Part shown: positions 3,520 through 45,145 of the stretch, piece by piece
Layout of the letters: each line of letters opens with the position of its first letter
Numbering within the stretch: the first letter of the stretch is position 1
Source of the DNA: Methylomonas sp.
Lineage (GTDB): Bacteria > Pseudomonadota > Gammaproteobacteria > Methylococcales > Methylomonadaceae
Direction of reading: 5' to 3'
Assembly (NCBI GenBank): GCA_002928965.1
Contig: PERU01000005.1
Coordinates: forward strand, 62,001-126,000
Length of the DNA stretch: 64,000 nucleotides
Translations under genes and position numbers: made by a program
Notes under the pieces: generated by a model
Database searches by the model: none
Told to the model about the DNA's origin: nothing
Seen by the model: only the letters and a program-made list of their open reading frames with translations

Positions 3520-5280
3520 ATGAAACATAAGCTCGAATACCTGTTAAATCATGCTGTTGAAGCCCTGAAAGCACAAGGTATTCTTGATCAAGAACTGGCT
3601 GTGCAAATCAATCTGGAACGTGCCCGCGATGCTCAGCATGGGGACTTTGCCACTAACTTGGCAATGCTGCTGGCTAAAGCAGCCAAAACCAACCCTCGGC
3701 AATTGGCTGAAAACATTATTGCTGCAATTCCCACCGATAATCTGATTGCTAAAATTGAAATCGCCGGGCCTGGATTTATCAATTTTTTCATCAATCCCGA
3801 TAGCCAATTCCAGATTGTCAAACAGATTCACCACGCCGGCCCGGAGTTTGGCCTGAGCACGATTGGTGCAGGTAAAAAAGTACAAGTTGAATTTGTATCC
3901 GCCAACCCGACAGGACCTTTGCATGTCGGTCATGGTCGTGGTGCCGCCTATGGCTCTGCCGTTGCAGATTTATTGCAGGCAGTCGGCTTTAATGTTGAGC
4001 GTGAGTATTATGTCAACGATGCCGGTCGGCAAATGGACATTTTGGCAACCAGTGTCTGGTTACGTTATCTTGAAGAATGCGGCGAGGTACTGCCTTTTCC
4101 TTGTAACGGATATCGCGGCGAATACGTGCGGGAAATTTCCTTCAACCTGCATAAGAAAGCCGGTAATGATTATCGTCGCCCGGCCGAATTGGTTCTGGAA
4201 GATATTCCTGCCGACGAACATCAAGGCGGCGATAAAGAAAAGCATATTGATGCTTTGATAGAACGGGCAAAAACCCTGTTGGGCCCAGCGCAATACCACG
4301 ACGTATTCCAGGCCGGATTGAATGAGATTCTGGCCGACATCAAAGACGATTTGCAAGAATTTGGTGTCAGCTATCAGCATTGGTTTTCGGAAAGCTTATT
4401 GATGGTTGACGGTTCCATTCAGCAAGCACTCAAGCGTCTTGATGAAGCAGGTTACCTTTATAAACAAGAAGGCGCCACCTGGTTTGCTTCCAGTCGGTTG
4501 GGCGATGAAAAAGATCGGGTGGTGATTCGCGATAACGGCCAAAGTACCTACTTCGCTTCTGATATCGCCTATCACATGAATAAGCTGGATCGTGATTTTG
4601 ACCAGATTGTGAATATCTGGGGTGCGGATCATCACGGCTATATTCCGCGCGTCAGAGCGGCCATGCAGGCCTTGGGTGCTGATGATTCCAAATTGAAAGT
4701 GTTGCTGGTGCAGTTTGCGGTGTTGTATCGCGGCACCGAAAAAGTACAGATGTCTACCCGTTCCGGTGAATTTGTCACCCTGCGCCAATTACGCAACGAA
4801 GTAGGCAAAGATGCCTGCCGGTTTTTTTATGTGATGCGTAAATCCGAGCAGCACATGGATTTTGATTTGAAACTGGCTACGTCGAAAAGTAACGAAAATC
4901 CGGTGTATTACGTGCAATATGCCCATGCTCGTGTCTGCAGTGTGTTGCGTCAACTGGATGAAAAAGGCCGGGAGCGCAATCTGCATTTGGGCATGGAACA
5001 TTTAAATCTATTGACCGAGGAGCAGGAAACAGCCTTGTTGACCAGCTTATCCAGATATCCGGAAGTGCTGGAACGTGCTGCGCTGCAATATGAACCTCAT
5101 CAATTGATCCATTTTTTACGCGAATTGGCCAACCAGTTTCATAGTTATTACAACGCGCATCAATTTTTGGTTGACGACGACAGACTCTGTAATGCTCGAC
5201 TCAATTTGATTTGCGCTGTAAAGCAAGTGCTTTCGAACGCACTGAATCTGTTAAAAATCCACACACCTGAATCGATGTAA
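3520..5280 (+). CDS. argS: Arginyl-tRNA synthetase
   Basis: This 586-residue class I aminoacyl-tRNA synthetase charges tRNA-Arg. The N-terminal Arg-tRNA-synthetase additional domain (about 1-90) is followed by [17 protein letters not shown] with the HIGH-type signature HVGH at 135-138. The KMSKS-equivalent loop is VQMSTRSG near 409-416, as is usual for ArgS. The alpha-helical DALR anticodon-binding domain forms the last ~110 residues. Length is standard. The stop codon overlaps the next ATG by one base (TAATG), coupling it to the SPOR-domain gene. Confidence 0.97.
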
Positions 5281-40668: not shown

Positions 40669-42084
40669 TTATTTCTTCACATACAAATCCGTAATCGTGC
40701 CTTCAATCATCTCGGCCGCAAAGGCAAAGGTTTCAGATAAAGTGGGATGCGGATGGATGCTGAGGCTGATGTCGGTGGCATCGGCACCCATTTCCAGGGC
40801 CAGCACGGCTTCGGCGATCAGTTCACCGGCACTGGGACCGGTCATGCCGGCACCCAGAATACGGCCAGTGGTTTTGTCGGTGAGGATTTTGGTCAAGCCT
40901 TCGCTGCGTCCCATGGCCAAAGAACGACCGCTGGCGGCCCAAGGAAAGGTGGCTTTTTCGTATTCCACGCCTTGTTCTTTGGCTTGGTTTTCGGTCAAGC
41001 CCATCCAGGCGATTTCCGGATCGGTGTAGGCTACCGATGGAATGGTCAGCGCGTCGAAACCGGCTTTATGGCCGGCAATGGTTTCAGCGGCAATTTTACC
41101 TTCATGGGTGGCTTTGTGAGCCAGCATCGGGTTGCCGACGATGTCGCCGATGGCGAATATGTGGCTGATATTGGTACGGCCTTGTTTATCGACAGGGATA
41201 AATCCGCGTTCATCGACATTTACCCCGGCTTTGTCGGCATCGATTAACTTGCCGTTCGGGCGGCGACCAACGGCGACCAACACTGCGTCGAATACTTCGC
41301 TTTCCGGCGCTTCCTTGCCTTCCATCGTGACTTTAATGCCGGCATCGGTAGCTTCCATGGCTTTGACGCTGGTTTTCAGCCACAGATTGTCGTATTGCTT
41401 TTTGATTTTGCGTTGCAGCGGAGTAACCAGATCTTTATCGCAGCCGGGGATAATTTGATCCATCAACTCGACCACGCTGATTTTAGATCCCAATGCATGG
41501 TAAACCGTCGCCATTTCCAGGCCAATGATACCGCCGCCGACGATCAATAGTTTTTCCGGGACTAAACTCAGGTTTAAAGCGTCAGTGGAATCCCAAACGC
41601 GTGGGTCATCGTGTGGAAAACCGGGGATTTTGGTCGGTTTTGAACCAGCGGCAATGATAGCGTTGTCGAAGGTGATGGTTTGGGTGCCGGACTCATTCTC
41701 AATGGTCAAGCTATTGGCACTGGCGAATTTACCGACGCCATTGATCACAGTGACTTTGCGTTGTTTGGCTAGTTTGCCCAAACCTTGATTCAAGCCTTGG
41801 CTGACGCTTTCCTTCCAACCGCGAATTTTGTCCAAATCAATAGTAGGCTTGCCGAAACTGACGCCATGCTCGGCCATTTCGTCCGCTTCATGAATGATTT
41901 GCGCCGTATGTAACAGGGCTTTGGAGGGAATGCAGCCCACATTCAGACAGACGCCGCCCAATACCGGATACCGCTCCACCAAAACCACTTGTTTACCTAA
42001 ATCAGCGGCACGAAATGCGGCGGTATAACCACCAGGGCCTCCGCCCAGGACTAGAACTTCGGCGTGTGTTTGATTGTTACTCAT
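40669..42084 (-). CDS. lpdA: Dihydrolipoamide dehydrogenase (E3)
   Basis: This 471-residue flavoprotein reoxidises dihydrolipoyl groups of 2-oxoacid dehydrogenases or the glycine cleavage system. The FAD motif is VLVLGGGPGGYTAAFRAADLG and the redox disulfide is GGVCLNVGCIPSK. The NAD motif is LLIVGGGIIGLEMATVYHALG, and the C-terminal catalytic His-Pro/Glu is in IHPHPTLSETFAFA. It lacks the N-terminal lipoyl domain of some E3s. It is monocistronic here, so its main partner complex is elsewhere. Confidence 0.96.
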   Translation of the reverse strand: MSNNQTHAEVLVLGGGPGGYTAAFRAADLGKQVVLVERYPVLGGVCLNVGCIPSKALLHTAQIIHEADEMAEHGVSFGKPTIDLDKIRGWKESVSQGLNQGLGKLAKQRKVTVINGVGKFASANSLTIENESGTQTITFDNAIIAAGSKPTKIPGFPHDDPRVWDSTDALNLSLVPEKLLIVGGGIIGLEMATVYHALGSKISVVELMDQIIPGCDKDLVTPLQRKIKKQYDNLWLKTSVKAMEATDAGIKVTMEGKEAPESEVFDAVLVAVGRRPNGKLIDADKAGVNVDERGFIPVDKQGRTNISHIFAIGDIVGNPMLAHKATHEGKIAAETIAGHKAGFDALTIPSVAYTDPEIAWMGLTENQAKEQGVEYEKATFPWAASGRSLAMGRSEGLTKILTDKTTGRILGAGMTGPSAGELIAEAVLALEMGADATDISLSIHPHPTLSETFAFAAEMIEGTITDLYVKK

Positions 42085-42240: not shown

Positions 42241-42613
42241 TCAGTCTGGTAAGTGCCGACTGGTTTTGGAACGGATAGCCTCGATGCGCTGAGTCAGCGG
42301 TGTATCCAGTACCTGTTAGTATAAAAACACCAAAGCATTCATCACCTGATTTTGGGTGGCCGCTGCCACTTTGCGCTCTGTCGCCAGATAGCTTAAAAAC
42401 GCTTCTATCTTGGCCTCGCTGTTTTCAAACAGCCCAGCTCCGCTCATTCAGTTGATGGAATTTCACGAATTGCTTGATCCACTCAGAATACGTACGTTCG
42501 GTATGCAGCGAATAATGCTTAAGCCGCATGACGCGGCGAACATCTTCCAGCAAGGTCGGCGATTTTGAGCTTGACGTAAAATGGTTAGCAGCTATAGTGA
42601 GGCGAAAAAACAT
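42241..42613 (-). pseudogene. Truncated, frameshifted integron integrase (intI remnant)
   Basis: The minus strand from 42613 reads an IntI-type N-terminal SAM-like domain: LLEDVRRVMRLKHYSLHTER and TYSEWIKQFVKFHQLNERSW. After a -1-type frameshift near 42430 it continues GLFENSEAKIEAFLSYLATE, then KVAAATQNQVMNALVFLY. An in-frame TAA follows at 42316-42318, then QVLDTPLTQRIEAIRSKTSR before a final stop at 42241. The whole catalytic C-terminal half (R-H-R-Y tyrosine-recombinase domain) is gone, so it is inactive. Its orientation, away from the cassette at 42726, is the standard integron layout. Confidence 0.85.
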
Positions 42614-42725
42614 TACTTAGGCAAAGTTGCATGAATTTATGGTCAATATTGAGTTATCAAGGCAAAAGCGCCTGAAAAGACCGGTAATATCAACTTATCG
42701 GGCAGATTTGCTTGATAATCAATAG
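42614..42725 (+). other. Putative attI region of the integron remnant
   Basis: This ~110-bp gap lies between the start of the integrase remnant and the first cassette boundary. In integrons the attI site occupies this place. The recombination point is inferred as G^TTAGCT at 42725-42731. I cannot identify attI accessory sites or a cassette promoter with confidence. Confidence 0.5.
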
Positions 42726-43163
42726 TTAGCTGCCTCAGGGAGATACCAACAGATGAAATGGAAAATAATTTTTGCACTAGCTGTTCTGTCGCTTAGCTCT
42801 GGCTGTGATATGAGAGTCTTAGACGAATCAACATATGTTTTAGTTCGTCAAAGTAATTTGAGTTCAGAACCAGGCTTGCGTGCGTACTTCGTAGATGGAG
42901 ACGCGACACTCAATGGTATCGACTGTAGAGAACTAATGTCACTTGCAAATGAAGCTGTAGAGTTACACAAAATTAAAGGTGAAACAGCCACAAAGTATGA
43001 GTGTGTTTCTCTTCGTGAAGCGCGTGAGCGAGGTTTCAAGTGAAAAACAGTTGGAATCGTCAGCTAACAAATCGCTCAAGGCGTTCGCTGCGCTCACTGG
43101 GACAGTCCAAACCGGGGCTGCTTCGCAGTATTGCGCCGGTTCGGCCTGCCCCTTAGCTCGGCG
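42726..43163 (+). mobile_element. Integron gene cassette (438 bp)
   Basis: The cassette begins after the G of GTTAGCT (42725-42731) and ends at the G of GTTGGGC (43163-43169). The 5' bases TTAGCT are complementary to the R'' core AGCTAAC (43062-43068) at its own 3' end. That is expected if the cassette was inserted from a circle by IntI. It holds one gene on the + strand, ending 19 bp before the attC site. Confidence 0.8.
42753..43043 (+). CDS. Cassette-encoded putative lipoprotein, 96 aa
   Basis: This 96-residue protein has a signal peptide with lipobox LSSGC (lipidation at C18). The small mature domain contains two further cysteines (GIDCRELM and KYECVSLRE) that could form a disulfide. AGGGAG at 42737-42742 lies 10 bp before the ATG. 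I recognise no family, which is usual for cassette genes of chromosomal integrons. The AT-rich composition differs from neighbouring genes. Expression would need a cassette promoter. Confidence 0.75.
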   Translation: MKWKIIFALAVLSLSSGCDMRVLDESTYVLVRQSNLSSEPGLRAYFVDGDATLNGIDCRELMSLANEAVELHKIKGETATKYECVSLREARERGFK

Positions 43164-43169
43164 TTGGGC
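43062..43169 (+). other. attC recombination site (59-base element)
   Basis: The 108-bp site runs from R'' AGCTAAC (43062-43068) to R' GTTGGGC (43163-43169). CAAATCGCTCAAGGC forms the left arm and GCCCCTTAGCTCGGCG the right arm of an imperfect inverted repeat, the pattern of chromosomal-integron attC sites of the Vibrio VCR type. The centre contains further pairing (GCTGCTTCGCAG). The orientation is standard for a cassette gene read from the left. Confidence 0.82.
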
Positions 43170-43230
43170 ATCACCAAGCGGGCAGGGATATTGATGTCAG
43201 ATCGCAACGAATTTAAAAAAGACAACAGCG

Positions 43231-44135
43231 TCAGGTCTCGAATTAAGAATACCCAGTTTTGAGCTACAGTTAACGCCATGACCAGACCTCTTAGACTTGA
43301 ATTTCCAAATGCGCTCTACCACATCACTTCCCGCGGTGATCGGCGAGAAGATATCTACGAAGACGCAGAGGACAGGCATATTTTTCTGAGCCTGCTGGGC
43401 AAGGTTGTTGCTGATTTCAATTGGCTTTGTCACGGCTATTGCCTGATGACAAACCATTACCATTTGATAGTAGAAACCCTTGAGGGCAATCTCTCCAAAG
43501 GGATGCGGCAATTGAACGGCGTGTACACTCAAACCAGCAATCGCCGCCACGGGCGGACGGGACATTTATTCCAAGGTCGTTATAAAGCCATTCTGGTGGA
43601 TAAAGAAAGCTACCTTCTGGAATTGGCTCGCTACGTTGTGCTTAATCCTGCCAGAGCGGGCATGGTGCGAAAACTTGAAGACTGGCCGTGGAGCAGTTAC
43701 CTTGCGATGAGCGACCAAGTAAAAAAGGCTGACTGGCTGACAACGGACTGGATATTGTCCCAATTCGGCGAGAATCGAGCCGCAGCAGAACAGCGTTATC
43801 GCGTGTTTGTGCAGGATGGCATGCAGCAGACTATTGAAATTTGGCCTAATTTAAAGAATCAGATTTATCTGGGTGATGAGGAATTTGTAGCAAAGGTTCA
43901 ACAGGGCTTTGAATTCGACAAACAGGCTTGGGATATTCCAAAAAAACAAAAGCGGGGGATAGCCAAGTCGTTATTCGAAATCGAGCGGCAAGCAATTGAT
44001 AGGAATACCGCCATAAAAACAGCGTATGCCACTGGAGTTTATAGTCAGCGAGAAATTGGGACGCATTTTAATCTGCATCCCAGTACAGTGAGTGTGATCG
44101 TCAGGCAAGGCAGCAATTCTTAATTCGGGACCTGA
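43231..44135 (+). mobile_element. REP-type transposase unit bounded by 20-bp inverted repeats
   Basis: TCAGGTCTCGAATTAAGAAT (43231-43250) and ATTCTTAATTCGGGACCTGA (44116-44135) are inverted copies with one mismatch, enclosing only the transposase gene; the right copy contains its stop codon. The unit starts 62 bp after the attC end. Such IR-flanked RAYT genes are candidate self-mobile units. Confidence 0.75.
43278..44123 (+). CDS. REP-associated tyrosine transposase (RAYT, Y1-Tnp family)
   Basis: This 281-residue HUH single-strand transposase carries RPLRLEFPNALYHITSRGDR at the N-terminus. The HUH metal motif is H60-Y-H62 in CLMTNHYHLIVETLEG. A probable catalytic tyrosine lies in NGVYTQTSNRRHGRTGHLFQ (Y83). 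The C-terminal ~80 residues add a helix-turn-helix resembling AYATGVYSQREIGTHFNLHP, probably for DNA recognition. The family processes REP-like palindromes and is domesticated in some genomes. The frame is intact. Confidence 0.9.
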   Translation: MTRPLRLEFPNALYHITSRGDRREDIYEDAEDRHIFLSLLGKVVADFNWLCHGYCLMTNHYHLIVETLEGNLSKGMRQLNGVYTQTSNRRHGRTGHLFQGRYKAILVDKESYLLELARYVVLNPARAGMVRKLEDWPWSSYLAMSDQVKKADWLTTDWILSQFGENRAAAEQRYRVFVQDGMQQTIEIWPNLKNQIYLGDEEFVAKVQQGFEFDKQAWDIPKKQKRGIAKSLFEIERQAIDRNTAIKTAYATGVYSQREIGTHFNLHPSTVSVIVRQGSNS

Positions 44136-44192
44136 CCCCATCTTTGACCCTTTGCCTTTCCAGGATACAGCCAAGTGGGGGCTTGAAATCAG

Positions 44193-45145
<953 letters not shown>

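Follow-up and report, generated by a model that had tools for sequence, protein, structure and literature searches.

A probable decayed chromosomal integron in Methylomonas and its place among integrase-less attI copies of the genus

Organization of the locus

The 64,000-nucleotide stretch analysed here (hereafter, the window) belongs to the draft genome of a Methylomonas sp. (4.03 Mb, 85 contigs, 99.99% complete). The locus of interest is bounded by two genes that we provisionally call lpdA (40669-42084, -) and wrbA (44193-44801, -). From the first to the second, it comprises an intI remnant, an attI site, a 438-bp cassette with its attC, the first 60 bp or so of another cassette, and a RAYT-type element (Table 1).

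Table 1. Features between lpdA and wrbA, in window coordinates
Feature	Position	Strand	Basis
intI remnant	42254-42613	-	N-terminal part; frameshift and further in-frame stop; catalytic domain absent
Putative cassette promoter Pc (TTGACG, 16 nt, TATAGT), directed into the cassette	42571-42598	+	10/12 consensus
attI, three GGCA..TGCC-like modules, end AATCAATAG	42599-42725	+	Homology to intact integrons
First gene cassette, 438 bp	42726-43163	+	attI border; R'' exact complement of cassette start
96-aa ORF, putative secreted or lipo-protein	42753-43043	+	Signal-like N-terminus, LSSGC
attC, 108 bp, like the blaOXA-10 cassette attC	43062-43169	+	blastn; R''/R' core boxes
Start of second cassette (TTGGGC...), cut off by next element	43164-43222 (right limit approximate)	+	Sequence; RAYT left limit
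RAYT-type (Y1) transposase element; ORF 43278-44123	43229-44137	+	Near-perfect inverted ends; family matches

ORF 42425-42613 (-) matched the NCBIfam family integrase_gron (E 1.1e-7, 31.6 bits, far under the full-length cut-off of 265) and the Pfam family Phage_int_SAM_4 (36.4 bits, cut-off 27). Past a frameshift, the gene can be read to about 42254 with a further in-frame stop, which bears out the initial annotation of a leftward, frameshifted and truncated IntI-like gene. Together, the pieces correspond to residues 19-140 of the 358-residue intact IntI of genome G011, and the catalytic domain is therefore absent. The window thus carries an attI adjoining intI, as a complete chromosomal integron would, and no intact intI with a catalytic domain. 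G011 holds the closest intact integron in the genus, with 85.0% DNA identity to the intI-attI part over 501 bp, followed by G008 (84.4% over 506 bp) and six other genus genomes (70-75%). This identity to intact integron intI marks the fragment as an integron integrase rather than a non-integron tyrosine recombinase. Its left limit, first placed at 42241, moves inward, as DNA similarity to intact integrons starts at 42254-42257. At the other end, the alignment runs out at TT or TTAG, the first bases of the cassette, and thus at the attI/cassette border.

No second integron integrase was found in the host draft genome, where no TIGR02249 match reached the cut-off. When the same genome was searched with 312 residues of the G011 IntI, only weaker matches appeared outside the window (best 55% over 76 residues, on contig C34), nearly all at sites of Phage_integrase proteins. 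It is possible that an integrase lies inside an assembly gap of the 85-contig draft.

The attI of the window has three GGCA..TGCC-like modules against four in G011, a 30-bp deletion relative to G011 and G008 having removed one, and its last base (G at 42725) is followed directly by the cassette start TTAGCT at 42726. This attI was absent from the plasmids searched, and the exact pattern of attI core plus TT had no match in viral contigs. Overlapping the intI remnant is a promoter-like pair, TTGACG-16-TATAGT, of a kind seen twice in the region against 1.5 expected in shuffled sequence. Comparable TTGAC(A/G)-16-nt pairs with a -10-like hexamer lie 185-186 bp before the cassette in all seven intact integrons of the genus, a count made without shuffled control.

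The boundaries of the first cassette agree with those initially proposed, a 438-bp unit ending in a 108-bp attC. Its R'' box, AGCTAAC (43062-43068), is the exact complement (7/7) of the cassette start at 42726, again as first described, and the R' box, GTTGGGC, ends at 43169, so that the pairing and the terminal R' of an integron cassette are both present. We regard the similarity of the candidate attC to that of blaOXA-10-type cassettes as the strongest evidence that the site is an attC: by blastn, the best record was 79.8% identical over 93% of a 118-bp query, and 50 of 72,556 plasmid records matched, 41 of them covering at least 80% of the query. A covariance model trained on 13 Methylomonas attC from relatives, with the window site left out, returned exactly 43062-43169 as its top match in the 64 kb, at the right coordinates but with a weak score (12.9 bits, E 0.99). 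A pairing detector with an R/L-box rule yielded two candidates on both strands of the 64 kb, of which the window attC scored better, and gave lower best scores on two plain shuffles of the window; the rule was set after the site had been seen, and the detector recovers five of ten other attC at threshold. Judged by that rule, the L box forms a 7-bp L''/L' helix with one unpaired base, the extrahelical base expected in the bottom-strand stem-loop of an attC; free folding alone does not yield the canonical R/L-box structure as its minimum. Neither an earlier loose-pairing scan, which produced numerous false candidates and failed to pick up the window attC, nor a later scan at threshold 11, which returned nothing, known sites included, is used as evidence.

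The cassette gene has 41.2% GC (rank 47 among 657 windows), compared with 48.2% in the 64 kb as a whole; it is thus only moderately AT-rich, which tempers its initial description as AT-rich. Its proposed identity as a lipoprotein gene is favoured by the signal-like N-terminus with LSSGC. The usual lipobox consensus has Leu at -3; here the position is Ser, and with this imperfect lipobox a lipoprotein is unproven. Homologues of the protein were found neither in the 36 other genus genomes nor in 368 other genomes drawn from the class, and none was confirmed in genome contigs (123 pattern matches) or viral contigs (6 pattern matches) or found in plasmids. There was no Pfam or NCBIfam family match, and the best PDB match had an E of 1.4. 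Matches to a PHROG of unknown function (E 0.012) and to a CcrColossus protein (E 1) were too weak to assign the protein to either. A single-sequence AlphaFold model reached a mean pLDDT of 57.

After the R' box, the sequence continues with ATCACC... and an ORF start at 43194, and is broken where sequence common to other RAYT copies begins. It reads as a second cassette, starting at 43164 and evidently cut by the RAYT-type element. The latter scored 78.4 bits against NF047646, slightly under the cut-off of 80, and 40.2 bits against Y1_Tnp (cut-off 23), and its termini (43229-43249 and 44117-44137) are inverted repeats. One attC was found at the locus, so that it does not qualify as a CALIN (at least two attC without integrase). 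The single trapped cassette of the initial annotation accordingly stands as the one complete cassette, but the array had at least a second, and further cassette remnants occur in the host genome on contigs C9 and C1.

Several observations concern RAYT-type elements elsewhere. The end sequence of the element at the window locus occurs in 3 of 37 genus genomes, often in an integron context (a tally without background rate), and in the host genome two of about five such elements come after an attC and cut the next cassette. One of the host remnants (L144, G000:C1:89000-98000, at about 3590-4460) has a cassette with an attC of about 122 bp, followed by a second cassette cut by a RAYT end at G000:C1:93409; no attI core or intI was found there. 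A partial attC-like match lies at G000:C66:1979-2064. In G011, a RAYT copy (G011:C1:562849 and 564111) sits inside the cassette array, and in G015 one (G015:C98:83477-84386) lies about 650 bp past an orphan attI. The RAYT gene of the G011 array (L072, 6867-8322) is split at about codon 53; its two parts face opposite ways on either side of an attC, an arrangement that would fit an inversion within the array.

Taken together, the intact homologues in the genus, the blaOXA-10-like attC and the lack of another integron integrase in the host draft support the original proposal of a sedentary integron that lost its integrase and trapped a gene. Neither of the outcomes first named as refuting came out clearly: the fragment belongs to an integron integrase, and the covariance model did match the attC, if only at E 0.99. 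We consider it highly probable that we are dealing with a chromosomal integron of Methylomonas that has decayed. Its intI has lost the catalytic domain, and what is left besides the intI piece is a promoter-like site, attI, one complete cassette and the beginning of another. The cassette would have entered by IntI-catalysed attI x attC recombination and would now be fixed in place, and the promoter-like site may drive its transcription.

Integrase-less attI copies in the genus

Comparison with related genomes, proposed initially as a way to find further cassettes, placed the locus among many integrase-less attI copies. The comparison set comprised 37 Methylomonas genomes (36 besides the host). 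No shared chromosomal site emerged: lpdA was not found within 1.5 kb around wrbA in relatives (30 loci, the window's own included), the sequence upstream of lpdA varies among relatives, and no empty site for the window locus was found among them. Searching for the 26-position attI core with at most 3 mismatches gave 37 matches in 18 of the 37 genomes, against none for a reversed-pattern control. One match, in G022, had neither attI context nor a cassette start and was dropped as chance, leaving 36 copies in 17 genomes. The base triplet after the core, which lies outside the search pattern, was TTA or TTG in 34 of the 36 and CTA in the other two.

An intact intI of the window-type family adjoins seven of these copies (G005, G008, G009, G011, G012, G013 and G034). 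Beside the G016 copy lies a broken full-length intI, and short intI pieces accompany the window attI and four others. We call orphan docks the 29 attI copies, window included, without an intact intI beside them; the window attI, with its core followed by G|TT(A/G) and no intact intI adjoining, is one of them. Ten orphan docks are in four genomes with an intact window-family intI elsewhere (four in G005, two each in G008, G009 and G034). The remaining 19 are spread over ten genomes without an intact intI beside any attI copy; two of these genomes, G014 and G029, hold other full-length integron integrases over the cut-off. G005 also has a second integron integrase over the cut-off, and given these other enzymes, it simplifies matters to speak of one integrase per dock genome. 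In G027, a close intact intI is present, but the attI core was not found there at up to 3 mismatches.

Apart from the copy with the broken full-length intI in G016, the docks share 31-469 bp of upstream similarity with intact integrons, the window dock keeping 469 bp. The promoter-like pair is kept by 19 of the 29 orphan docks, preceding the cassette by 171-187 bp in 15 and by 76-156 bp in 4 (without shuffled control); among the other ten, eight have none and two have another spacing. Several of the similarity limits fall at the -35 box, which we read as a retained promoter, not as the end of an element. A single defined mobile unit behind the docks was considered; with similarity varying from 31 to 469 bp, it is unproven either way.

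Of the 28 orphan docks other than that of the window, 16 were assigned an attC by the covariance model (E<=0.01) within 5 kb downstream and in dock orientation, and the other 12 none. The 16 docks represent 15 loci, as two share one array. Five of these loci supplied model training sequences (L068, L277, L278, L291 and L299) and three more (L282, L284 and L290) carry close relatives of one, which leaves seven independent loci. By the same model, six of the seven intact integrons have a downstream attC and the chance match in G022 has none. At none of these orphan docks did the better attC match point the wrong way. Eight weaker matches on the opposite strand, three of them at orphan docks, coincide with the same palindromic places and were left uncounted, and one G011 attC scores better in the opposite orientation. 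A strict test of the first cassette, which required an exact R'' and an arm score higher than in any of 20 plain shuffles, was passed by 10 of the 29 orphan docks, window included, with five more at one R'' mismatch; this is a weak scan that we do not use as evidence.

Group II intron domains (Rfam RF02001 and RF01998) were also observed downstream of attI in G013, in G005 and at an orphan dock of G009 (L077, L078 and L294), with an RF00029 match in L077 only.

Possible cassette movement and proposed origins of orphan docks

Several comparisons bear on how these docks acquired their cassettes. A 302-304-bp cassette that comes first at the intact G005 integron is also first at an intI-less dock of G008 (G008:C51), with 96.7% identity. 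This high identity does not extend beyond the cassette: the preceding 100 bp are 83.3% identical and the following 200 bp 52.2%, where unrelated sequence gives 47-49%. In lpdA, the sole core gene compared, G005 and G008 are 84.6% identical. The cassette is again first, and in tandem, at an orphan dock of G035 (90.8% identical), and G005:C1:5476845 carries a diverged 245-bp relative (66% identical in a global alignment, 78% with blastn). G024 and G036 share an orthologous orphan dock with both flanks conserved (91.6% over 2.8 kb and 90.6% over 2.9 kb) and different inserts, of about 866 and 508 bp. In each insert a 7-base R'', located at about 820 and 420 bp respectively, is an exact match to the start of that insert. 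Neither genome holds an integron integrase over the cut-off today, and a cassette change there therefore needs an integrase since lost. Both single cassettes (L275 and L292) end right after R'', with the remaining attC missing, beside the same flanking palindromic repeat. Likewise, the upstream flanks of the host dock on C9, G008:C71 and G014:C1:2653841 are 88-91% alike; their cassettes start differently, and at the threshold used no downstream similarity was seen. Finally, attI copies are more alike within than between genomes, with a mean identity over 100 bp of 84.5 vs 76.7% and none of 2000 label shuffles as high. This comparison covers the 30 of 36 docks with a long attI, the within-genome range is 63.4-98%, and the higher likeness is partly shared ancestry.

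These patterns suggest that Methylomonas may have distributed integrons, in which several promoter-attI docks are loaded and reshuffled in trans by the integrase at one dock; judged from comparisons between genomes, we see the chances of this as evenly balanced. Each dock, at its own chromosomal locus, would express its own first cassettes, and in genomes with an intact IntI elsewhere the integrase-less docks would be loaded in trans. Docks would outlive the loss of the integrase and could become active again if one arrived, and the window would be a dock in a genome that lost its integrase.

The in-trans part of this proposal has one direct competitor, plain decay, in which each orphan dock is a dead relic loaded by its own intI; orphan docks may indeed have been loaded before losing their own intI. 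We find this plausible, at somewhat less than an even chance. It accommodates the intI remnants of different lengths found at several of the orphan docks, the window's included, and the loss of intI at orthologous loci. It also fits the 19 orphan docks in genomes without an intact intI beside any attI copy, and the different cassettes at the G024/G036 dock in genomes that now lack an integrase. It does not readily explain why the cassette at the intI-less G008 dock is 96.7% identical to its G005 counterpart when lpdA is 84.6% identical, with an intact IntI elsewhere in G008, nor the closer likeness of attI copies within genomes, a point softened by its wide range and by shared ancestry.

An unlikely explanation is that attI fragments spread as parts of cassettes, in the manner of delta-attI-type cassettes, with the docks as by-products of array recombination rather than decayed integrons. 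Passages of PMC12901181 describe cassettes of this type from class 1 and 2 integrons, and two G005 loci resemble them. At G005:C1:900475 (L281), an attC with an altered R' runs directly into a 31-bp attI core, and this attC aligns locally to a G011 attC with a score of 48, against a maximum of 13 in 200 shuffles. At G005:C1:5476845 (L282, which also includes 5478057), an attI with 55 bp of similarity lies 1.2 kb downstream of another attI. Most orphan docks, however, exceed the core: 19 of the 29 have the promoter-like pair, several have 5' intI sequence, and the window retains its 469 bp. A non-integron tyrosine recombinase beside a chance attC-like hairpin is hardly credible, since the shortness of the fragment, its family scores far under full-length cut-offs and the weak covariance-model score are set against 85% DNA identity to an integron intI that adjoins attI and cassettes, and a blaOXA-10-like attC.

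In our reading, the window locus would be one member of a genus family of integrase-less attI docks. Decay of intI in several integrons, the window's among them, would account for most of these docks, and attI fragments carried in cassette arrays for some. The first route can be followed at orthologous loci, where intI is intact in G012 vs truncated in G002 and G035, and intact in G008 vs broken in G016. The shortest docks likely come from the second.

Relation to known integron systems

Taken alone, the window locus is an ordinary inactivated chromosomal integron, of a kind already documented. Passages of PMC12444791 report that Xanthomonas strains lost intI by frameshift, stop or deletion and kept cassettes, with arrays also found away from intI, and parts of PMC3607928 report intI loss with retained cassettes in Treponema. 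The inactivated integrons and CALIN of Xanthomonas, as presented in those passages of PMC12444791, resemble the window in combining intI loss with retained cassettes. Closer still are the complete integrons of Methylomonas, such as that of Methylomonas sp. WSC-6 (G008; locus L073, identical to L161, NZ_JANIBK010000208.1), which have the intI family, attI, promoter-like site and cassette orientation in common with the window. Compared with these, the window is without the catalytic domain, has a shortened attI, and retains one complete cassette only. The attC of the blaOXA-10 cassette is about 80% identical to that of the window, whereas the cassette genes differ, the window's coding for a 96-aa putative secreted protein. 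Methylococcales attC are among the sets used by Ghaly et al., according to portions of PMC8352920. The delta-attI-type cassettes of class 1 and 2 integrons carry attI pieces inside arrays, like G005:C1:900475, but in the account that parts of PMC12901181 give they sit in mobile integron arrays, whereas most Methylomonas docks are separate chromosomal loci with a long attI.

What appears new is the genus-wide set of integrase-less attI docks, which matched no description that we found. Our search of the literature covered titles and abstract beginnings, with most subscription journals and preprints outside its scope, and no description of dispersed integrase-less attI docks was found there. A cassette that lies far from Pc would be expected to show poor expression. 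Several docks per enzyme, if true, would provide more well-expressed positions and would make cassette gain independent of integrase loss. Portions of PMC3607928 assign a single attI to each integron platform. As given in parts of PMC9024848, the IntegronFinder 2 default reports attC clusters without integrase from two attC on, and the window, with one attC, would therefore be passed over. A genus-specific attI core search finds docks with one or no recognisable attC, which attC-cluster searches would skip. Within the sections of PMC12444791 concerned, Xanthomonas arrays away from intI are described by their attC, with no account of attI docks lacking intI, whereas the Methylomonas docks are recognised by their attI, with up to four orphans per genome (G005).
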